27,076 nt of DNA from a virus: IMG/VR virus record IMGVR_UViG_3300013285_000062, positions 1 through 27,076 of that record; one strand, given 5' to 3'. Positions 908 through 16,199 of the stretch are shown here, piece after piece. Under the pieces are notes generated by a model. The model was not told the DNA's origin, did no database searches, and saw nothing but the letters and a program-made list of their open reading frames with translations. The position numbers and the translations under genes were made by a program. The first letter of the stretch is position 1, and every line of letters starts with the position of its first letter.

Positions 908-3900
908 TAGTATTTACCGTCAGGTTGGCTTCGATAGCGAATATTACCAATTCGCCAAAAGCTTCCAAGATCGTTACTAGAAATACCGACTGAAACAAGT
1001 CGGCCACGGAATCTAGGACTAAACCATTGCGTATTTGAAGTCACTTCATACGGACCATACACAGACACAAGACCATTTGTTGCTGTAATCGTTGTGCTTG
1101 CAACAGTCTGTGAGTTGCTGATAGTCCATGTTGACCCACTACCACTCACAATGGTTGTGTTTAAGGTAACGCCCGGCGCGCTAATAAATTGGCCAGCGGC
1201 GATTGTTCCCGATATTAATGAAGTTACTGTCAATGTAGTATCAGAAATCGATCCTATGAAACTAGCATCACTTGTTGCCTGAGTTGGAAAATCAACAGTA
1301 TAGAACGTGATATTGACGGCCGCTGTTTGCGTATTACCGTAATATCCCCATTTCATGTCTGGCCAGACCTCGTCAATAAACATTTTGATATCAGCATCAG
1401 AGATTGTGAAGTAACCCGTCTGAAAGCTGGCACGCAACGGTGACCCGTCTGCATCTGTCGAAGTCTCATGCTGGTACAAGTATAGTGAGCTTGGATCTGC
1501 TCCAATAGGCGGCCCAAGAACAGACTGATCAACCCACGCTGAGCGGCTGAGTACGCCAAAGTCCCATTGCTGCAAGTAAACATTATATTTAACGTAGGCA
1601 TTTATCTCACCGCCATCACTGACGGTTGGATAAAACCACGATATTTCGCCAAAACGTGAATTAACAGCGACTCGTATCTTGTCTAGATTTGTTGTGTCAA
1701 GGTCTTGGAATATCACATCCCAAACAGGGCATGGAACAGGCTGTACTCCGCCTCCAGAGAGTGTAAAGAACTGCGATGGCCCCATCCAATAGACTGATCC
1801 ATTAACAGAAGCAGCGGCTTTCTTTGCGATCAAGCCACATCCTGTACCGATCTCATTGAACGAATACACGTACGGCTGCCCGATATATTGCATTGACCAT
1901 AATCCGATATCAGTCCACACAAGACCCTGTTGTGATGCCTGAATGCATCCAACAATCTTGGATCCTTTTGACAGCCTGTATGAACCTGCTTGATTTGTGA
2001 CGTTTGCGATCCATGATCCGTAGTTATCAACATCGCACCAGCGAATTAGAAGCGGATCTTGTACGCCAGTGAAAGTTGAGCCCCACGCAATGATTTGCCG
2101 TTGTGGCATAGCAACAAAGATACCGTCATTGACTGGGGGAGCTTGCGGTATAACCGTTGCGGTCAGGCTATTTGTCACGGGCTCCCATTGGTAAATCGGT
2201 TGGAATGGTGCGCTCTGTATTGATATTGTTCCAGAACCTGTTTGTGCAGCAGTAACTGTTGAAGCAAAGTACACTGAATTTTGAGACAGCGCAGTGATCG
2301 TTGTGCTTGATACAGTTTGTGAAGAACTAATTGTCCAAGACAGCCCACTACCGGAAACAATACTGGTATTGCTCAAAATGCCGGTCCCACTGATGATCTG
2401 GCCGATAGCGATCGTCCCAGAAGATACAGCAGATACTGTTAATGTCGTTGCAGAAATAGACCCCGTAAAAGTCGCAGCAGAGACTACCGTATACGTCCCA
2501 TTCCATGTGGAAGGAGTCACCCCTGAGACTGTAATTATCTGACCAACAGGAATTACGTAAGCAGCTCCAGTATAGCTTAAAGAACCAACGCTACCTGTTC
2601 CTGAAGCACCTGTCGTTGCTAATGAAATTTGAGAAGCCGTAGGACAGCTCAATAAGATCTCTCCCCAATTGTCCATTGTCCAATTGGTGGCTGGAATAGC
2701 TGTTCCTCCAGACGGGCTCAAGGCTTGACCGTTACCCCAAGTCCCAAGACCCCAAGGCCCAATACCCCAACCGACAGATGTTGGTGCAGATCCAAAACCA
2801 AAGTTGTACGTAAATTGCGCGTTACCGTTGTTAATATAGGCGCTTGCAGATGATGTAGCGACTGTGCTTGCATTAATTGTAAAGTTACTAACATCTTTAA
2901 CAAGCTGTACGATGTAATTTCCGTACAAAGTAACGCCGCCAACAGTCGTAGGCACAAGGACTGGATATGTGCTTCCAGCAGAGTACCCATGATTTGGAAG
3001 GGTTACGGTAACTTCTGTTGCATTTGTTGATGTTTTAAATAGGGCAACAATAGCTGTTGTAGAAGCGGTCATTGCCTCAGCAGAAATAACAGACGTTTGC
3101 GAAATGCTTAAGTACCAAGTCAATCCGCTTCCAGACAAAATCATTGTTCCCGGAGACACTCCAGTTCCACTAATTACTTGACCTACTTTGATTGTCCCTA
3201 CGACAGTTCCAGAAACTGTCAAGACATTTCCAGTGATGGCGCCAGTAAATGATGCGTTGCCTGCAACGCCCGTTATTGTCGTTGTCGATGCGGTCTGTGA
3301 CGGGCTTACAGTCCATGAGGATCCGCTACCTGCAGTAATGACAGTTCCTGCCGTTATTCCTGTTCCAGTTAGGACTTGGCCGATTGAAATGATTCCGCTA
3401 GTGACGGAACTAACCCCCAAAGTAGTACCAGAAATAGACCCAGTGAATACAGCAGTACCGGACGTAATTGGAGCCGGAAGGGCAGTTCCAAGAGAGTTGA
3501 TAGATAAAATTGTGTAACTCGTGCCATTAACGCTCGTATACCCATCTGGATCACAGGCATATAGGCCAAACAGAATTAGGCCACCAACGCTAATATGGGT
3601 CGGTATGTAGACAGAATCATATTGTGTAATGTTCTTAATTGTCGTATCTATGACAAGGACAATTGAGCTTCCAGAAGTGGTCGTAATGTTTGGAGAAATG
3701 TTGTCAGTCGATACTTGAGGCGTAATATCTTTCAGAGAATTATTTGTAATAACCGACAACTGTGCCGTATAAGTATTACTAATATTTTGTGTTCCAATAG
3801 CAAGGTGAGAATTTGAATTTGTATCTGCCCAAGCCCATAGGCCTCGAACAATAGAGGCTATTTGGCTGCCATAGAACTTGGTCCATCCGCCCAATTTTTG

Positions 3901-4029
3901 GATTAGGCCGATTCCGTTCCTGTCTGGTATAAACCGAATTAGGTTTGACGTAGAAATTCCAGCTTGATTAAGTGCTGGAGTTTCGTTCTGGTCAAGCCCC
4001 GGTATAAGTTTAATTGATGAGTGTGGCAC
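907..4029 (-). CDS. Tail nozzle / packaged-DNA stabilisation-like protein with inserted modules (1040 aa)
   Basis: The N-terminus ([20 protein letters not shown], then [18 protein letters not shown] and ITPQ) and the core ([65 protein letters not shown]) fit the P22 gp10 / T7 tail-tubular-B-like nozzle proteins of podoviruses. These form the distal end of the short tail through which DNA passes. The C-terminal part ([20 protein letters not shown]) also fits. The gene is longer than its base fold needs because it carries four copies of a 61-63 residue module (residues 194-254, 260-322, 520-580, 923-983) and one copy of a second module type (about 481-604) that surrounds the third. It follows an adaptor gene with a 6-nt gap and ends in a TAATG overlap. 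Nozzle assignment is from pattern; module insertion is seen directly. Confidence 0.82.
1081..1263 (-). repeat. 61-residue module A, copy in the nozzle C-terminus
   Basis: Nozzle residues 923-983, beginning [13 protein letters not shown] and ending [11 protein letters not shown]. It interrupts the C-terminal strand region between FPTQATSD and VYGPYEVT, which I would expect to be nearly continuous in a simpler nozzle protein. Its length is exactly 61 codons, as in three of the other four copies. Confidence 0.75.
2218..2589 (-). repeat. Module B split by a nested module A in the nozzle gene
   Basis: Nozzle residues 481-519 ([35 protein letters not shown]) match the first part of the B modules of the 530-residue fibre gene. 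Residues 581-604 ([19 protein letters not shown]) match their last part. Residues 520-580 (2290-2472) in between are a complete 61-residue module A. The simplest reading is that A entered an existing B. Confidence 0.72.
3064..3450 (-). repeat. Two tandem module A copies in the nozzle gene
   Basis: Residues 194-254 ([13 protein letters not shown] ... [11 protein letters not shown], 61 residues) and 260-322 ([13 protein letters not shown] ... ending EAMTA, 63 residues, more diverged) lie head to tail with a 5-residue linker. They sit within the beta-rich N-terminal half of the nozzle. At DNA level the two copies differ widely, so this is not a recent duplication. Confidence 0.75.
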
Positions 4030-6961: not shown

Positions 6962-8043
6962 TACGCATTACTCCCAAAATCTTCAATAACGATTAGTCCA
7001 CCGGCTCCAGCACCGGCTGCTCCACCAACAGCGGATCCACCAGATCCAGAAGCGCCACCACCGCCACCGCCACCACCGTACCCATTACCTGCAGATCCTG
7101 CGCCGCCAGTTCCGCCGTTAGTTGCTGATCCAGAACCACCAACTCCACCGGCTCCATATTGGCTGTCTCCGCCTCCGCCTCCGCCTGCACCAGAACCTGC
7201 TCCAGATCCGCCAGATGCTGAACCAGACAGGCTAAATGCTCCAGTACCCGTTGGGGTTGGTTGACCAACGCATCCGCCAGCATATCCATTGCCAGTAGTT
7301 CCATTGACTGCAGTTCCGCCTGCACCGCCAACGCTATTGCTAATGCCAGCAGTATTTACGGCATTTGCTGGTGGAGTTAATGATCCTCCGACAGTTGCAA
7401 ATTGGCCGCCGTATCCAAGGATATTTCCTGCAGATCCGCCAAGCGATCCGCCGCTGCCTGCAATAGAAACTAATTGGCCGAATGTCGTATTACTTCCGTT
7501 ACTGCCAGCAGTTGCTGCAGTAGTTGGACTGAAAATAGCTCCCGTACCTCCAGACCCACCAGATCCGACAATCCATGTTGTTGGAGAAGTCACTCGCACC
7601 CAATACATAACAGTCTGCCCGGCTCCTCCTCCACAACCGCCATAACGACTTCCAGAAGCAGCGGCAGCTCCGCCGGCGCCGCCGCCGCCGCCTGCAACTA
7701 GTGTTACTCGGCACCATGAGCTATAAATGACTGCAGTAATCGTTGTTGATGACACAGATTGAGAAACGCTAACAGTCCATGATAACCCACTACCAGCCGT
7801 AATTTGTGTGTTGGTCGTGACTCCGCTTCCAGATATCCATTGCCCAATTGCAATCGTTCCTGAAGTAACTGAAGAAACAGTTAGAGTTGTCCCAGTAATT
7901 GTTCCAACAAAGACCGCGTTAGTTGTTGACGAGTAGGGAATATAAGCCGCAGTACCAGAGCCTGTTCCAGAAGTGTACGTAACAATTTGCTGCGGAGTAG
8001 AGCCTGCTCCGCCGCCGGGGAAGAATTGAGTAAGTGTTGTCAT
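6961..8043 (-). CDS. Glycine-rich tail fibre / adhesin (360 aa)
   Basis: The N-terminus contains [20 protein letters not shown]. After an inserted 61-residue module A (residues 44-104) comes [20 protein letters not shown], then a long glycine-, serine- and alanine-rich region with GGGGGG runs to near the C-terminus, which ends [13 protein letters not shown]. The order TYTSGSGTYTxP...WCRVxLVGGGGGGG...GxIxIEE is typical of glycine-rich phage fibre or adhesin proteins, whose glycine-rich loops can form the receptor-binding tip. The module breaks this family's usual head between YIPYSS and WCRVTL. It is followed at once by the assembly-like gene and preceded after 1 nt by another fibre gene. Confidence 0.75.
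7732..7914 (-). repeat. 61-residue module A in the glycine-rich fibre
   Basis: Fibre residues 44-104, from [13 protein letters not shown] through [14 protein letters not shown] to [11 protein letters not shown], are exactly 61 residues. It is the same module as the four nozzle copies, in a protein of otherwise unrelated fold. Confidence 0.78.
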
Positions 8044-8044
8044 A

Positions 8045-9637
8045 TTAGGAAACCACCCAACCGTAGGTTGTATCGTAAACGAGATAAAAAGCCGCGCTAT
8101 TAATGTTAATTGCCATGTTAGCCAAGTTATTCATAATCTTAAGGCCATTATTTGCTAGGGTAATATTATTTGTTGCACTGTATTGACCAACATCAATAAA
8201 TTGAACCCAATCGCCTGCGCTAGCAGAAGCAGGCATTGTTAGAGTAAAGGCGCCGCCTAAGCTATTTAAGTGGTATCGAGTAAAGACGACAGCAGTCGTT
8301 CCGTTGCCTGAAACTGTTGTATAGGTCTGAGATACGCCCTGAACGCTAGTCCAGCTTGTTGTGTTATTCGCGTTAGTCGTCAGTGCCTGCCCTGCGGTTC
8401 CACTGGTTGCAGGCAACGTAAACAGCCATTCATTTGCCCCAGTTCCTCCACTGATGGAGTTAAAGGCAGGGACAATGCTTGGATTTGATGTTGCACCATT
8501 GCAGGCGACAGCAATACGGTAACCAATAGGAATCGTAATAAAATTAGATGATTGAGTCGTTGTGCCATTTGATGCATAGACTTTAATGGCGCCGCCAGTT
8601 GGGAATGCAATTGTTCCTGCAACTGTCTGTGAGCCAGTTGTTGCGCTAAGGAAAGAAACAGAGCTTGTTGTTGATGCCGTAATTGTGTATGTCCCGTTAT
8701 AACCAGACGGTGTTACACCAGAGATTGTTACAGACGATCCGACAGGAGGAGCAACGGCCATTGCCGCAAAGCTAACGGTTGCTGTTGCCGTATAGTTAAA
8801 TGCAATTGTTCCAGCAACAGTCTGTGGCCCAGTTGTTGAAGACTGAGAATATGTAATAGTCGTTGTTGTTGATCCAATGATCGTATACGTTCCCGTATAA
8901 CCAGACGGGGTGACTCCAGAGATAGTAACTGTTGTACCAACGGTTGGCGCAACAGACTGCGCGGCAAAAGAAATAGTTGCAGTGTTAAATCTAATTGTTC
9001 CAGCAACTGTTTGTGTTCCTGTTGCAGAACTAGTAAATGAGACAGACGTTGTTGTCGATGCAGTAACCGTAAATGTTCCGTTATATCCTGACGGAGTGAC
9101 ACCAGAAACCGTCACTTGAGATCCAATTATTGGGGCCGCAGACAATGCAGCAAACGATATTGTTGCAACAGTCCCTGTTCCTGCAGTACCAGTTGTCGCG
9201 GTAGTAACAGTTCCGCTTGCAGCAGTCGTTGCAACAGTTGTCGTTGTTCCGCTTGTTGATGTCGTTGCGGCAGATGATGTCGTGTTATTGTAAATGTAAT
9301 ATAGCTTTGGCGTGATCGGAAGGATCAGATTCTGCGTATAATTAGTAGTGCCATTGCACTCAATATACATGTTACGAGCAGAAACTGGAGTTGCTGCAGA
9401 TGCTGGAAGAGATGGTTGACCGTAGATAAGTCCTGCCGTTGTATTGCTTCCTGCATCGGCACCATTCAATGTTGTAAGCGTAATATCAGCATTCGCGAAT
9501 GGCTGATATACATAAGCAGCAATCGCTTGATCAAAAAGCGTTCCTTCATTTAAATTCGTGACGTTACCCCAGTTACCGGATTGATCTCCAGTCGCCATGA
9601 GGTTTACGCCAAGATTGCTTGAATATGTACTTGACAT
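8045..9637 (-). CDS. Tail fibre protein with three tandem B modules (530 aa)
   Basis: The N-terminus [20 protein letters not shown], then [10 protein letters not shown], is the start of a very common fibre family (MSSTYSxNLxxxLxxTGxQSGxWGxxTNxN), thought to be the part joining the virion. After [10 protein letters not shown] and a Thr-rich linker come three copies of a 60-65 residue beta module (about residues 157-344). The fibre then resumes at [11 protein letters not shown] and runs through [20 protein letters not shown] to a C-terminal beta domain ([20 protein letters not shown]). The role is host binding or its support. The inserted array separates parts that would otherwise join. Confidence 0.78.
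8605..9165 (-). repeat. Three tandem B modules in the fibre gene
   Basis: Each unit runs from (T)ATxSFAA through [20 protein letters not shown], TxTxxxSTTTxxxxxS to TVAGTI. Copies lie at about 8985-9165, 8803-8984 and 8605-8790, with unit lengths of 61-65 codons. The protein sequences are close while the DNA differs at many third positions, so the units have been apart for some time. Confidence 0.75.
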
Positions 9638-9651
9638 AGAAGAGCCCTAAA

Positions 9652-12450
9652 TTATGACCAGTTGCCAATGTTAGTAACAGAGCTAGAACCCATCTGACGA
9701 ATCTTAAAATACGAACCAGCGTTGACAATTGCTGCTGCCGCAATTCCTAAAGAAACTTGCGGAATGACTGTACCGGTCCCTGCCACACTAATAATTCCAA
9801 TAACCTTTGCAACACCAACCGTGTTTGCAGTGGACGGACAAATTGATGTATTTGCTGCTGTATTAAACCCAAATTGAAATGCAGTTCCGCTTGTAAAAGA
9901 AACTGGTTTAACCGCTAAACATTCCCAATACTGAGTAATTGTTGCTGTTCCACCCAGCGCAAACCCATAACTACTTGATGTACTAGACAATGACGAAAGA
10001 AAAAACGCACACTCAAATTCATACGTTCCAACAGGCAAGGTAATAGCGCCGTTTGTAGTTGAATTAAAAAGTTTTTGAGCAGCGGTTTGGCTTGTTAACG
10101 TATAAGGTGATGTCAAAATTTGAAATTGCTCTGCCATCCAAACGCTTCGTGATGACGATGACGGAGTAAAATAACCTACAGTCCCGTCATACTCTATAGA
10201 TCCTGCTGTCGCAGTCGTTAGGTTTGTACCAGATGTTAATAAAATTGGCGCAACTGACGTTGTACCAGCAGTTACGGTGACTCCAGTAAACCGTCCAGCC
10301 GCAGCAGTTGTCACGCCAATGGACGTATTGTTAATTGTGCTGGCAGCGGTTGGGTTAATCGTTAAAGCACCAGCAGGACTGATTGCTACAGTGCCTGTAC
10401 CAGTCGGGCTAATAGCCACGTTTGCGGATGCAGGACTTAACGTTGTCGTGCTAGATGCTGATAGGGTTGTAAAAGCACCCGTGCTGGCGGTTGTTGCACC
10501 AATGGACGTATTGTTAATTGTGCTGGCAGCGGTTGGGTTAATCGTTAAAGCACCAGCAGGACTGATTGTGACCGTTCCTGTACCAGTCGGACTAATCGCC
10601 ACGTTTGCAGAAGCGGGGCTTAACGTCACTGTGCTGGTTGAGGTGATTGTCGTAAACCGTCCCGCAGCAGCCGTTGTCACGCCAATCGACGTATTGTTAA
10701 TTGTGCTTGCAGCAGTGGGGTTAATTGTTAAAGCGCCAGCAGGACTAATGGTCACAGTGCCAGTGCCGGTTGGGCTGATTGCGACGTTGGCAGAAGCCGG
10801 ACTTAACGTTGTCGTGTTAGATGCTGATAAGGTTGTAAAAGCACCCGTGCTGGCGGTTGTCGCACCAATGGATGCGTTGTTGATCGTGCTGGCTGCGGTT
10901 GGATTAATTGTCAATGCACCAGCAGGACTGATTGTGACCGTTCCTGTACCAGTCGGACTAATCGCCACGTTTGCAGAAGCCGGACTTAACGTTGTCGTGT
11001 TAGATGCTGATAAGGTTGTAAAAGCACCCGTGCTGGCGGTTGTTGCACCAATGGATGCGTTGTTAATTGTGCTTGCAGCAGTGGGGTTAATTGTTAAAGC
11101 GCCAGCAGGACTAATGGTCACAGTGCCAGTGCCGGTTGGGCTGATTGCGACGTTGGCAGAAGCCGGACTTAATGTCACGGTGCCGGTTGCCGTGATCGTT
11201 GTGAACCGTCCCGCAGCGGCGGTCGTTACACCAATGGACAGATTGTTAATGGTTCCAGCCGTGGCAGGGTTTAGCGTGACAGTTCCTGTTCCCGTTGGAC
11301 TGATTGCCACGTTTGCGGATGCAGGACTTAATGTTGTCGTGCTAGATGCTGATAGGGTTGTAAAAGCACCCGTGCTGGCGGTTGTTGCACCAATGGACAG
11401 ATTGTTAATGGTTCCAGCGGTTGCTGGATTGATCGTCACTAATCCGGTTCCGGTTGGGCTTAACACCACGTTGGCATTGGCAGGACTTAACGTAACAGTG
11501 CTTGATGCAGACAACGTGTCTGTCGTTATACCGCCTGTAAATCCGCTCGGGCCTGTTGTGACTGTAAACGTGTCAACATTCATGCCTCCAGTTATTTGGA
11601 CTTGAGGAATTGAAAAAACGCTTGCCGTAAAACCCGCACAACTTAACGTTTGATTTGACGTCACATTGGTCAGAGCAACGCAATTGAAAAACGTTGCGTT
11701 CTGGGCAGTGGTTCCCCCTATAACAACATTGTCCATGTAAGACAAAGTGGCTGGATTGATTGTAACGGTACCTGTGCCGGTCGGACTGATATCAACGGCA
11801 GCATTGGCAGGATCTAATGTGACTGTGCTGTTGGCGGTAAGCGTATTATTAAATATGTGAGCTCCAGTCCATGTTGGAGCAATTGATTGGCTTAAATACG
11901 GGGCTGCATCAGACCGCATAAAGGTCGTTGCAGAGCCATTAACAGCCGTGAGCCCAATGCTTGCTGTTGGGTTTGCAGATGAACTACCGCTAGGATATGG
12001 GGCCCATGCTGTATTTCCAGAACCGTCTGTTTGAAGTATATAGTTCGCAGTACCAGCCGTTGTCGGCAGCGTTAATGACCAAGACCCGGCGGCAGCCGCT
12101 GTCTTAATGGAAACCGTTCCACTACTAGAACCGCTCAGATTTAATTGCGATCCGCCAATCAATTGGCCGATTGTAATTGGCCCAGTCAGCGTTGGGGAGG
12201 TCGCTAGGACCACATTTCCTGTGCCAGTGGACCCTAAATTATCTAAAAATCCACCATTGTTATATAAAATATTTCCAAACGTACCGCCTGCAATGGTCGT
12301 TGAACCAATAAGTAGATTATTCGTTGGAGAAATAGTTGCTATCTGGCCTGTTGTAATGGCAACAGAAGACCCATTTTGAACGCCCAAAAGCTGTTCAGAG
12401 CCACTCAATGCAGTAGCTGAAGGAAGGTTTGGAATGGTGATATTTGCCAT
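9652..12450 (-). CDS. Long repetitive tail fibre protein (932 aa)
   Basis: The N-terminus MANITIPNLPSATALSGSEQ, then LLGVQNGSSVAITTGQIATI, is a widespread phage fibre head likely to attach to the virion. Residues about 310-725 are a tandem repeat built on TLSPASANVAISPTGTGTVT, INPTAASTINN and SIGATTASTGAFTTL. It probably forms a long beta-structured shaft. The C-terminal 160 residues (from WMAEQFQILTSPYTLTSQTA) are non-repetitive with VGTYEFECAFFLSS and ALGGTATITQYW, the look of a compact beta receptor-binding head. The gene starts 3 nt after the zinc-ribbon gene and is followed by a second fibre gene 14 nt on. Fibre assignment is strong; the receptor is unknown. Confidence 0.82.
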   Translation of the reverse strand: MANITIPNLPSATALSGSEQLLGVQNGSSVAITTGQIATISPTNNLLIGSTTIAGGTFGNILYNNGGFLDNLGSTGTGNVVLATSPTLTGPITIGQLIGGSQLNLSGSSSGTVSIKTAAAAGSWSLTLPTTAGTANYILQTDGSGNTAWAPYPSGSSSANPTASIGLTAVNGSATTFMRSDAAPYLSQSIAPTWTGAHIFNNTLTANSTVTLDPANAAVDISPTGTGTVTINPATLSYMDNVVIGGTTAQNATFFNCVALTNVTSNQTLSCAGFTASVFSIPQVQITGGMNVDTFTVTTGPSGFTGGITTDTLSASSTVTLSPANANVVLSPTGTGLVTINPATAGTINNLSIGATTASTGAFTTLSASSTTTLSPASANVAISPTGTGTVTLNPATAGTINNLSIGVTTAAAGRFTTITATGTVTLSPASANVAISPTGTGTVTISPAGALTINPTAASTINNASIGATTASTGAFTTLSASNTTTLSPASANVAISPTGTGTVTISPAGALTINPTAASTINNASIGATTASTGAFTTLSASNTTTLSPASANVAISPTGTGTVTISPAGALTINPTAASTINNTSIGVTTAAAGRFTTITSTSTVTLSPASANVAISPTGTGTVTISPAGALTINPTAASTINNTSIGATTASTGAFTTLSASSTTTLSPASANVAISPTGTGTVAISPAGALTINPTAASTINNTSIGVTTAAAGRFTGVTVTAGTTSVAPILLTSGTNLTTATAGSIEYDGTVGYFTPSSSSRSVWMAEQFQILTSPYTLTSQTAAQKLFNSTTNGAITLPVGTYEFECAFFLSSLSSTSSSYGFALGGTATITQYWECLAVKPVSFTSGTAFQFGFNTAANTSICPSTANTVGVAKVIGIISVAGTGTVIPQVSLGIAAAAIVNAGSYFKIRQMGSSSVTNIGNWS
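10277..11517 (-). repeat. Tandem repeats of the long fibre shaft
   Basis: There are about seven repeat units of two lengths, near 53 and 61 codons. The longer ones carry an extra segment reading SPAGALTINPTAAS. Unit junctions are of two kinds, GATTASTGAFTTLSAS and GVTTAAAGRFTTI. Long stretches are nearly identical at DNA level, unlike the module A and B copies, so this array can gain or lose units by recombination. A degenerate copy lies upstream at about 11690-11850. Confidence 0.85.
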
Positions 12451-13886: not shown

Positions 13887-16199
13887 TTACGACATCGCTT
13901 CCTGACAGATCACATTAGCCGAAATCTTCGTTGCTGCATTTGTTGATATTGCAATTGTCAAAATGTCAGGAATATTTCCCTTAATGTTTGTTAAAACTGG
14001 GAAGAAGTTAGTCAAGTCAATTTGCAATAGGCCTGAAGAGGTGGGAGACAAGAAGGCCTGAACAACTTCACCACCGCTCAAATACCCTGCCGATACATCG
14101 CGCTCTGCAAAGGAATATATTGATCCGAGGTTTGCTTCTGGTTGGAAATTAGCGCCTGCTAATCCTAACTGCGCCGTTGGAGTACTTGCTATTAGCTCTA
14201 CGTAACAAGCAACGTCAGACGTAAGAACTAAAGACTGCGGCAGTAACTGACCACGATCAATTAACCCAACTGAATAATTGCAACCCGTCGTTGGTGCATA
14301 TGGTAATGCAAGTGCATTAACAATATCTTGAATCGTTAATGTAGTCGAAGTATTTGCCGTAATTTGCGCCGTGTACTGAGCTGTGATATTTCCGGCAGTT
14401 GTCGTAATTGCGCCCAAGACGTTGCCGTACCCAGTATTAATGGAAAATGCTGTTGCACTTCCAACTGCAATAACTGGATATACACCATTGATAGTACCAG
14501 TGGCCGACGTAAAACCAGATAAAATAACCACATCGTTTGTGGTCAAAGAATGGCTAGCAGTCGTTGTAATTGTTACGTAGGCTCCAGAAGTCGCTACTGT
14601 CGTGTACGTTGCAGCAGAGCCTGTGTTACCCACGCTTAGAAGGTAAGTTCCAGTACTCCCTGTTGTGCCCGTCAATTGGCTAACTATGGTTGGAGGAGTT
14701 GCAAACGTACCGCCACTTGATGCGGTACCTAATACCATTCCGGGGTAAATCGTTGCGCTGGTGACCGTTACAGTTAGGATAACTGTTGGTGCAGTTGCTG
14801 AACCAGAGGCTATAGTTCCTGTAATGTTTGTCGTTGCTTGGGCCGCGCTAACAATCGTTGTTGCAGCACCTGTCGCCGCGCCTGCTACGTTAGGCTGGTA
14901 GTTCAGCTTACGGCCAACTAAAGACGGGACATATACAACGGTTCCATTAACTGATGCAGTTCCCGATGTAGCATTTGCGTAGCTAATTGTGTTGTTTGTA
15001 ACAGCAGTAACTGTTGCAGAAGCATTGTTAAAACCAGATGAAGTAACGCCTGATACGTTCAATGTACTGCCTACAATAGGCATGGCAGATGAAGCAGGGA
15101 CCGTGATAATTGCAGTTGTTCCGTTGCCCACAATTGAAATTGGAGTGACTGATGTACTAAATGTGCTTGCTGCCGCAACTAATGAAGTTGTTGTACTTGA
15201 TGCCCCGACAACTGCTCCATTGGTTTGGTTATAAGAGCTTTGACCCATCGCCTTCATGCGGAACGATAGAAGCGGGTACCGAACCTTGTTTGCAGATACA
15301 GAAACGACTGGATAAGCAAGGTTCTGGCCATACGAATACGTGAACCCACGTTGCCTATCTTGCGTACCTTCAACTAGAACAGACACGCCAAAATGTTTAA
15401 AAGTTGTAGCAACAGTTGCCGATACCTGACGCTGCTCGTAACGGACCGGAAGATTACCAGTACGGCTCCAAGGAACGACCTGTGCAGATCCCGTAAAAGA
15501 ACTATTGCCAGTTCCAATCTCATGCAGGATGTACGGTTCGCCATTCAAGATGATGCCCCAGCGCAAGCAGCCTGCTCCGTACCAGCTATATTCCATCCAA
15601 ATCATTTGGACTTTTGACCAATCAATGCTGGACTTGATGCCATTTGGATCAGTCCAATTTTGATAAGTGATCACTGTATCAACAGGAGTACCACCAGTTG
15701 GGGACTGAGAATCAGAACGAACAACAACATTCATGCCTTGCGGGTTACCGCTAGAAGGTCCAATTTGTTGAAAAAAGATTCCGTTGCAGTCGTCAAAGAT
15801 TCCAACATTCTGAGTCTGTCCAGCCGCTGGTCCGCCAAAGTTGACGTTTGATGCAACGTACAGGCTCTTACCGGGCTGATAACGATGATAAGGGCGAGAC
15901 TGGCGAATCGTAATATCGCCTGCATTGACAACCTGCATTTGAACGCCACCAAGGCCCGGCAGGTTCGTAATCGTTGCCGTGTTTGCCGAGTTCGTGGAGT
16001 TCTGGCCATATGTTGTATTGTAAGTGTAGTTCTCCCAACGCAATGGCTGTGAGCCATACTCAAAGTCGGCATCATAGATGTTCTGATGCTGCACGACCTT
16101 CTGCCGGCCATTGGTGTCGCGGACGCGCTGAGGAAGAATGTACTGACCCGCTTGTGAGTCAAATCCAGTTGCTAATGTACCGTCAGTAAGACCAGACAT
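13887..16199 (-). CDS. Large conserved structural protein with inserted beta modules (770 aa)
   Basis: The N-terminal 300 residues contain DADFEYGSQPLRWENYTY, RQSRPYHRYQPGKSLYV, GIFDDCNGIFFQQIG, QMIWMEYSWYGAGCLRWGII and NLPVRYEQ. I recall this set from a conserved virion protein of many environmental phages, of unproven function, plausibly a beta-sandwich adhesin or tail-associated protein. The base protein resumes near residue 630 with RGQLLPQSLVLTSDVACYVE and ends in an Ala/Thr-rich domain. Between them (about 350-606) lie three different inserted beta modules. It sits between a conserved head-proximal gene and the adaptor, each within 14 nt. Confidence 0.72.
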   Translation of the reverse strand: MSGLTDGTLATGFDSQAGQYILPQRVRDTNGRQKVVQHQNIYDADFEYGSQPLRWENYTYNTTYGQNSTNSANTATITNLPGLGGVQMQVVNAGDITIRQSRPYHRYQPGKSLYVASNVNFGGPAAGQTQNVGIFDDCNGIFFQQIGPSSGNPQGMNVVVRSDSQSPTGGTPVDTVITYQNWTDPNGIKSSIDWSKVQMIWMEYSWYGAGCLRWGIILNGEPYILHEIGTGNSSFTGSAQVVPWSRTGNLPVRYEQRQVSATVATTFKHFGVSVLVEGTQDRQRGFTYSYGQNLAYPVVSVSANKVRYPLLSFRMKAMGQSSYNQTNGAVVGASSTTTSLVAAASTFSTSVTPISIVGNGTTAIITVPASSAMPIVGSTLNVSGVTSSGFNNASATVTAVTNNTISYANATSGTASVNGTVVYVPSLVGRKLNYQPNVAGAATGAATTIVSAAQATTNITGTIASGSATAPTVILTVTVTSATIYPGMVLGTASSGGTFATPPTIVSQLTGTTGSTGTYLLSVGNTGSAATYTTVATSGAYVTITTTASHSLTTNDVVILSGFTSATGTINGVYPVIAVGSATAFSINTGYGNVLGAITTTAGNITAQYTAQITANTSTTLTIQDIVNALALPYAPTTGCNYSVGLIDRGQLLPQSLVLTSDVACYVELIASTPTAQLGLAGANFQPEANLGSIYSFAERDVSAGYLSGGEVVQAFLSPTSSGLLQIDLTNFFPVLTNIKGNIPDILTIAISTNAATKISANVICQEAMS
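14380..15150 (-). repeat. Three unlike beta modules in series inside the 770-residue protein
   Basis: In order: a B-like module at about residues 350-422 (STLNVSGVTSSGFNNASATV), a diverged A-like module at about 456-533 (NITGTIASGS, YPGMVLGTASSGG, TYLLSVGN), and a C-type module at about 536-606 (ASHSLTTNDVVILSGF, TAFSINTG). Boundaries are approximate; similarity to the A and B modules elsewhere is moderate. Confidence 0.55.

Follow-up and report, generated by a model that had tools for sequence, protein, structure and literature searches.

A small beta-barrel domain nested inside another in the predicted tail nozzle of an uncultured phage

Promiscuous Ig-like domains are small, exposed and exchangeable beta domains of phage tail and capsid proteins. 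More generally, nested domains are mostly ancient, and the order in which they were acquired is hard to establish. The nozzles of T7 and SU10 are built on a seven-bladed propeller, with other domains entering or leaving it (PMC9509320, PMC6702177). In T7 gp12 the nozzle-tip barrel is reached through a loop of blade 3 (PMC6702177). SU10 gp17 has an insert of four Ig-like nozzle domains between propeller blades 2 and 3; these domains surround the tail and change their arrangement during infection (PMC9509320). That domains are inserted and shuffled in the tail proteins of phages is already known (Smug et al. 2023, PMC10684548); the literature that we searched contains no description of nested barrels in nozzles.

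We analysed IMG/VR record IMGVR_UViG_3300013285_000062, a stretch of 27,076 bases from an uncultured phage, referred to here as the window. The core of one of its proteins matches phrog_3287 (E 5e-55), and homologues of this protein carry the annotation phage stabilization protein. The PDB entries 'nozzle gp16' and 'nozzle of release VP1' (Vibrio phage VP1) match with E 2e-5 for the single sequence and 7e-8 with a three-sequence profile. Judged from these matches, the core protein is a podovirus tail nozzle/packaged-DNA stabilisation protein. A presumed propeller hairpin of this protein carries two small domains, A and B, arranged as follows.

910..4029, minus strand: nozzle protein gene, 1040 aa, predicted beta-propeller-type tail nozzle/packaged-DNA stabilisation protein
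2590..2667, minus strand: presumed propeller hairpin that serves as acceptor, first arm, residues about 455-480, from the alignment of relatives
2473..2589, minus strand: front part of the B domain, residues 481-519, with strands 481-487, 498-502 and 511-515, from the excision profile score and AlphaFold2
2290..2472, minus strand: A domain within the B domain (residues 520-580; A-profile score 77 bits), predicted to fold alone
2218..2289, minus strand: back part of the B domain, residues 581-604, with strands 585-589 and 601-605, from the excision score and AlphaFold2
2185..2217, minus strand: second arm of the acceptor hairpin, residues 605-615, ..APFQPIYQW, kept in relatives

Frame and coordinates are exact: on the minus strand, residue 481 corresponds to position 2589 and residue 604 to position 2218. 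An earlier search for a split B through partial profile matches found none, because the local alignment runs on from B into A. Its place was taken by an excision test, in which a deletion of 55-67 residues was slid along the nozzle region and the remainder rescored against a B profile from which the window nozzle had been left out. Uncut, the region scores 41.6 bits. The score rises to a peak of 60-66 bits only when the deletion starts at about residue 513-521 and is about 63 residues long, i.e., at A, while excisions starting before residue 500 leave a B score below 25 bits. With a larger B profile, the score is 67.0-69.7 bits after removal of A (model positions 1-65) versus 42.8 bits uncut. 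A candidate "B in A" at 478-543 in the window was rejected as an artefact of the alignment running on from B into A.

The fold of residues 470-615 was predicted with AlphaFold2 using 12 intact-B relatives (a shallow alignment of 13 rows). In this model both B halves reach a pLDDT of about 85-97 and are joined in one FCCH-type beta-barrel, with strands 471-477, 481-487, 498-502, 511-515, then 585-589 and 601-605. In the predicted B fold, A occupies the turn that links strand 4 to strand 5; the break falls between strand GTYTV (511-515) and strand SVYFA (585-589), where the initial annotation had located it. The A part of the fragment model is poorly predicted (pLDDT about 40-58), A being covered by no alignment row there; modelled alone with 40 rows, A attains a pLDDT of 98.1 and a pTM of 0.83. 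Alignments mixing A-only, B-only and nested proteins were discarded as input for structure prediction, since MAFFT had placed B on top of A. The excision test and the fold predictions thus agree with the initial annotation that residues 481-519 and 581-604 are two halves of one B with a full A (520-580) between them, each of the two giving a fold of its own. The nest of A inside B in the nozzle is real.

The two B halves together align with the FCCH barrel of Uba6 (216-293), which is continuous there, with Z 9.7 over 74 residues (rmsd 2.0 A), and also with the FCCH barrel of Uba1 (Z 8.5) and the barrel of the phi92 endosialidase (Z 8.0). For A, the matches include a chain of 8eci, an Arthrobacter phage Bridgette entry (Z 7.4, 31% identity), the Uba1 FCCH barrel (Z 6.4), elongation-factor barrels, F1-ATPase barrels and several phage tail proteins. 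Since a Z under about 8 may reflect a shared arrangement only, the fold match of A is weaker evidence than that of B. As modelled, guest A and host B are small barrels of one general kind; the comparison of their profiles gives an HH probability of 19%, which does not establish common descent. B has no FCCH match in Pfam at E up to 1, and we therefore regard it as alike in fold and do not count it as an FCCH member. Neither A nor B matches Ig-like families in Pfam; their best fold matches are barrels, though absence from the fold list excludes nothing.

To place the nest among relatives, 80 nozzle homologues were aligned, and further scans extended the sample to 145 parsed nozzle ORFs, with identical sequences merged and close relatives kept separate. 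About 100 of the 145 have a hairpin of 10-29 residues without B at this site; the strand ..WGEILLACP continues straight to ..PIYEW, so that the first hairpin arm runs directly into the second. Another 34 carry an insert of 80-99 residues, which is an intact B with no A; L001, L002, L010, L011, L063, L064, L067, L073 and others have it at the exact site used in the window. Six ORFs (window, L102, L264, L004, L005, L286) have an insert of at least 150 residues, and the remaining five were mis-parsed. L102 and L264 contain A inside B at the same turn as the window. In L004/L005, B is interrupted at this turn by a different module of about 74 residues (C), and in L286 an A lies inside another A in the same propeller hairpin, without B. 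B is also found about 30 residues upstream of the site in L028, L057, L061 (twice) and L078. By analogy with the T7 and SU10 nozzles, the acceptor loop would be the tip of a propeller hairpin. Read from these sequences, the nesting steps are all preserved among relatives: no B, B, B plus A, and B plus C.

These relatives also bear on a quite different reading, according to which the stretch of 124 residues is one native nozzle domain that resembles A and B through Thr/Ser/Gly low complexity. S, T and G do abound in all these proteins, and multiple alignment has difficulty in keeping A and B apart. The excision peak is however position-specific, A alone is predicted with a pLDDT of 98, and the B halves form one barrel. 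Moreover, residues 481-604 are no invariant part of nozzles, being missing as a whole from about 100 of them, and the intact-B relatives refute a single native domain. We therefore consider this reading extremely improbable and retain that of a nest of two domains.

A and B occur at further places in the window, both in the nozzle and in other predicted virion proteins.

3265..3453, minus strand: A copy 1, residues 193-255, between nozzle domains M1 and M2
3055..3255, minus strand: A copy 2, residues 259-325, in tandem with copy 1
1081..1266, minus strand: A copy 4, residues 922-983, C-terminal part of the nozzle; the same site is occupied in L007-L009
7732..7917, minus strand: A copy 5, in the Gly-rich tail protein 6964-8043
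8606..9181, minus strand: three tandem intact B, in the fibre gene 8048-9637
14934..15128, minus strand: fourth intact B outside the nozzle, residues 358-422 of the portal-like gene 13887-16199, 48.2 bits, E 5e-17

All five A copies, of which the nozzle has four and the Gly-rich protein one, and the three intact B copies of the fibre gene are as first described, and the B of the portal-like gene, absent from that earlier list, adds to them. The other four A copies share 55-71% protein identity with the nested one. Copies 1 and 2 (residues 193-325) are missing from all the other 80 nozzles aligned. A relative of the portal-like protein, L242, aligns on both flanks of the portal B and not across it. 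The same domains are thus found in otherwise unrelated virion proteins: A in the nozzle and the Gly-rich protein, B in the nozzle, the fibre and the portal.

Some further features of these genes were recorded. The portal relative L147 scores for A near the portal B site (339-398). Within the nozzle, M1 (3454-3717, residues 105-192) is homologous to M2 (2785-3054, residues 326-415; HH probability 95%), and M2 frequently hosts A or B inserts in relatives. The fibre-like gene 9652-12450 (minus strand, 932 aa) consists in part of tandem repeats of 183 nt (61 residues), in six to eight copies, and the long ORF 10277-11605 on the opposite strand looks like a by-product of them.

The order of the insertions was approached with a tree of the nozzle core from which all inserts were left out. 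The window falls within a 99% clade whose other members have intact B, except L007-L009, which lack B and carry A at the C-terminal A site of the window. L004/L005, with B plus C, group with L067 as their sister at 100% support; as L067 has an intact B, the order of host before guest is seen here too, for another guest in this turn. Adding L102 lowers the supports in the part of the tree that contains the window. The grouping of the window with L102/L264 is not rejected (AU p = 0.27), so that there may have been one or two A-in-B events; likewise, a grouping of the window with L007-L009 is not rejected, and the C-terminal A may therefore be a shared insertion. In each of these placements the A-in-B proteins have intact-B proteins as outsiders, which makes B first and A later the simplest reading of these sequences, in line with the order originally proposed.

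Conversely, A-in-B could be ancestral, the intact-B nozzles having arisen by precise loss of A. The nest is common to the window and L102/L264, whose grouping the AU test allows, and if they go back to one event without being sisters, some loss of A along the clade is required. However, intact B without A is present in both main groups of the tree and, outside nozzles, in the fibre and portal, an ancestral nest would call for many exact excisions of A, and the B-plus-C pair itself has an intact-B sister. Ancestral nesting is thus decidedly unlikely, and the acquisition of B followed by that of A is preferred.

The generality of nesting was surveyed by applying the excision test across all loci fetched. 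B in B was found in L274, L277, L278, L279, L281, L282, L284, L305 and L311, B in nozzle domain M1 in the L200 class, and B in M2 in L219, L238, L208, the L290 class and L289. A in M2 is present in L260 (79.0 bits vs 25.5), and A in A occurs in other proteins, namely in L158 (52.9 vs 27.9 bits), the L110 class, L338/L339 and L167. The suggestion that whole domains are added repeatedly to virion proteins is therefore borne out and extended. L110 and more than 10 relatives are large tail-type ORFs in which a divergent A-like barrel hosts a standard A, a nest that is apparently long established. L338/L339 come from Novosphingobium genome contigs, with the guest at another loop (model position about 31).

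Compared by eye with the predicted strands (those of M1 and M2 being placed by motif likeness), the junctions of the A-in-B, C-in-B, most A-in-A, B-in-B and B-in-M1 cases lie in the strand 4-5 turn, while those of the M2 cases and of L338/L339 lie outside it. This preference, judged by eye, is suggestive. It could be, and we put this forward tentatively, that the 4-5 turn is a general acceptor at which barrels of the same fold insert recursively (A/B, C/B, A/A, B/B, B/M1), giving open-ended, tree-like growth from modules that may sit in a shared environmental pool. Perhaps, on the other hand, acceptor turns are not special at all and the preference reflects where the profile test sees insertions, an explanation that we hold plausible without thinking it probable. 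Insertions near either end of a small barrel leave a host remnant too short for recognition, and the events were counted without a resolved tree; yet insertions were detected at other loops (M2 in L260, L289 and the L290 class; A position about 31 in L338/L339), so the excision test is not blind to them.

A and B are very widely spread in environmental phage contigs. A tblastn search of A alone against cultured-phage records gave no match at E 1e-3, and that of B gave two records, both from Manatee Spring. A scan of genome contigs for A found four loci, on two MAG contigs and two Novosphingobium contigs.

Taken as a whole, the data are best explained by a nozzle that has become a nest of domains through successive in-frame insertions, and we consider this highly probable. 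At a first level, a B barrel of about 65 residues entered a loop of the nozzle propeller, as the relatives with and without B show; at a second, a whole A barrel of about 61 residues entered the strand 4-5 turn of B, as the intact-B relatives and the excision test show. At this turn L004/L005 have a different module instead, and cases elsewhere have an A within A or a B within B there. Such insertions would be tolerated because the guests are predicted to be small, self-folding barrels and the acceptor turns probably face the solvent; the first and last strands of the guest pair, and its ends should thus lie close together.

The likely source of the insertions is illegitimate or short-homology recombination of the ordinary kind between phage genomes, after which selection would have retained only in-frame, fold-compatible products. 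A dedicated system, mobile element-like or based on programmed exchange, might instead move the modules; the recurrence of different guests at the same turn and the very wide distribution of A and B would fit with it. However, the 196 A and 186 B copies from all loci fetched include no pair in which modules of 80% or higher DNA identity stand between unrelated flanks. At the DNA level, identity among the A copies of the window is just 52-65%, and inspection of the junctions by eye showed no clear duplication or inverted repeat. Since this sample of copies shows no trace of a mobile unit, whether recent or dedicated, we regard such a system as quite unlikely, and chance recombination followed by selection would be the simplest account.

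As to function, the accessory barrels are likely exposed on the presumably hexameric nozzle and, by analogy with the Ig-like domains of SU10, could change how far it extends, how stable it is, or how it touches fibres or the cell surface; B with its nested A would form a further exposed arm. These viruses appear to build their tail proteins by repeated insertion of small domains into exposed turns. As the empty site and the first, second and alternative second insertions are all kept, the stepwise growth of a virion protein can be followed. This accounts for the large differences in length and the failures of annotation among these nozzle, fibre and portal proteins, and it points to exposed turns that naturally accept whole domains. 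As far as the literature was searched, recursive barrel-in-barrel nesting with kept intermediates is new.

The FCCH barrel of E1 ubiquitin-activating enzymes and the phage endosialidase barrel, which are themselves inserts within larger domains, resemble B in fold (Z 9.7 and 8.0); no sequence relation to B was detected, B being a phage virion module, and a literature search found no work joining FCCH, phage and beta-barrel. A and B are comparable to phage Ig-like domains as small, exchangeable and probably exposed beta domains, but the latter are sandwiches, whereas A and B match six-strand barrels in fold searches. The presence of the same small domains in unrelated virion proteins agrees with Smug et al. 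2023 (PMC10684548), which treats fragments shared between proteins and whose main text is without the word 'nested'. By sequence match, finally, the window protein resembles the podovirus nozzles of the T7 gp12, SU10 gp17 and P22 gp10 type in being a tail nozzle, presumably propeller-based and hexameric. It differs from those of T7 and SU10 in that its barrel would lie in another propeller hairpin, with a third domain inside that barrel, and in that inserts of this type differ among relatives.
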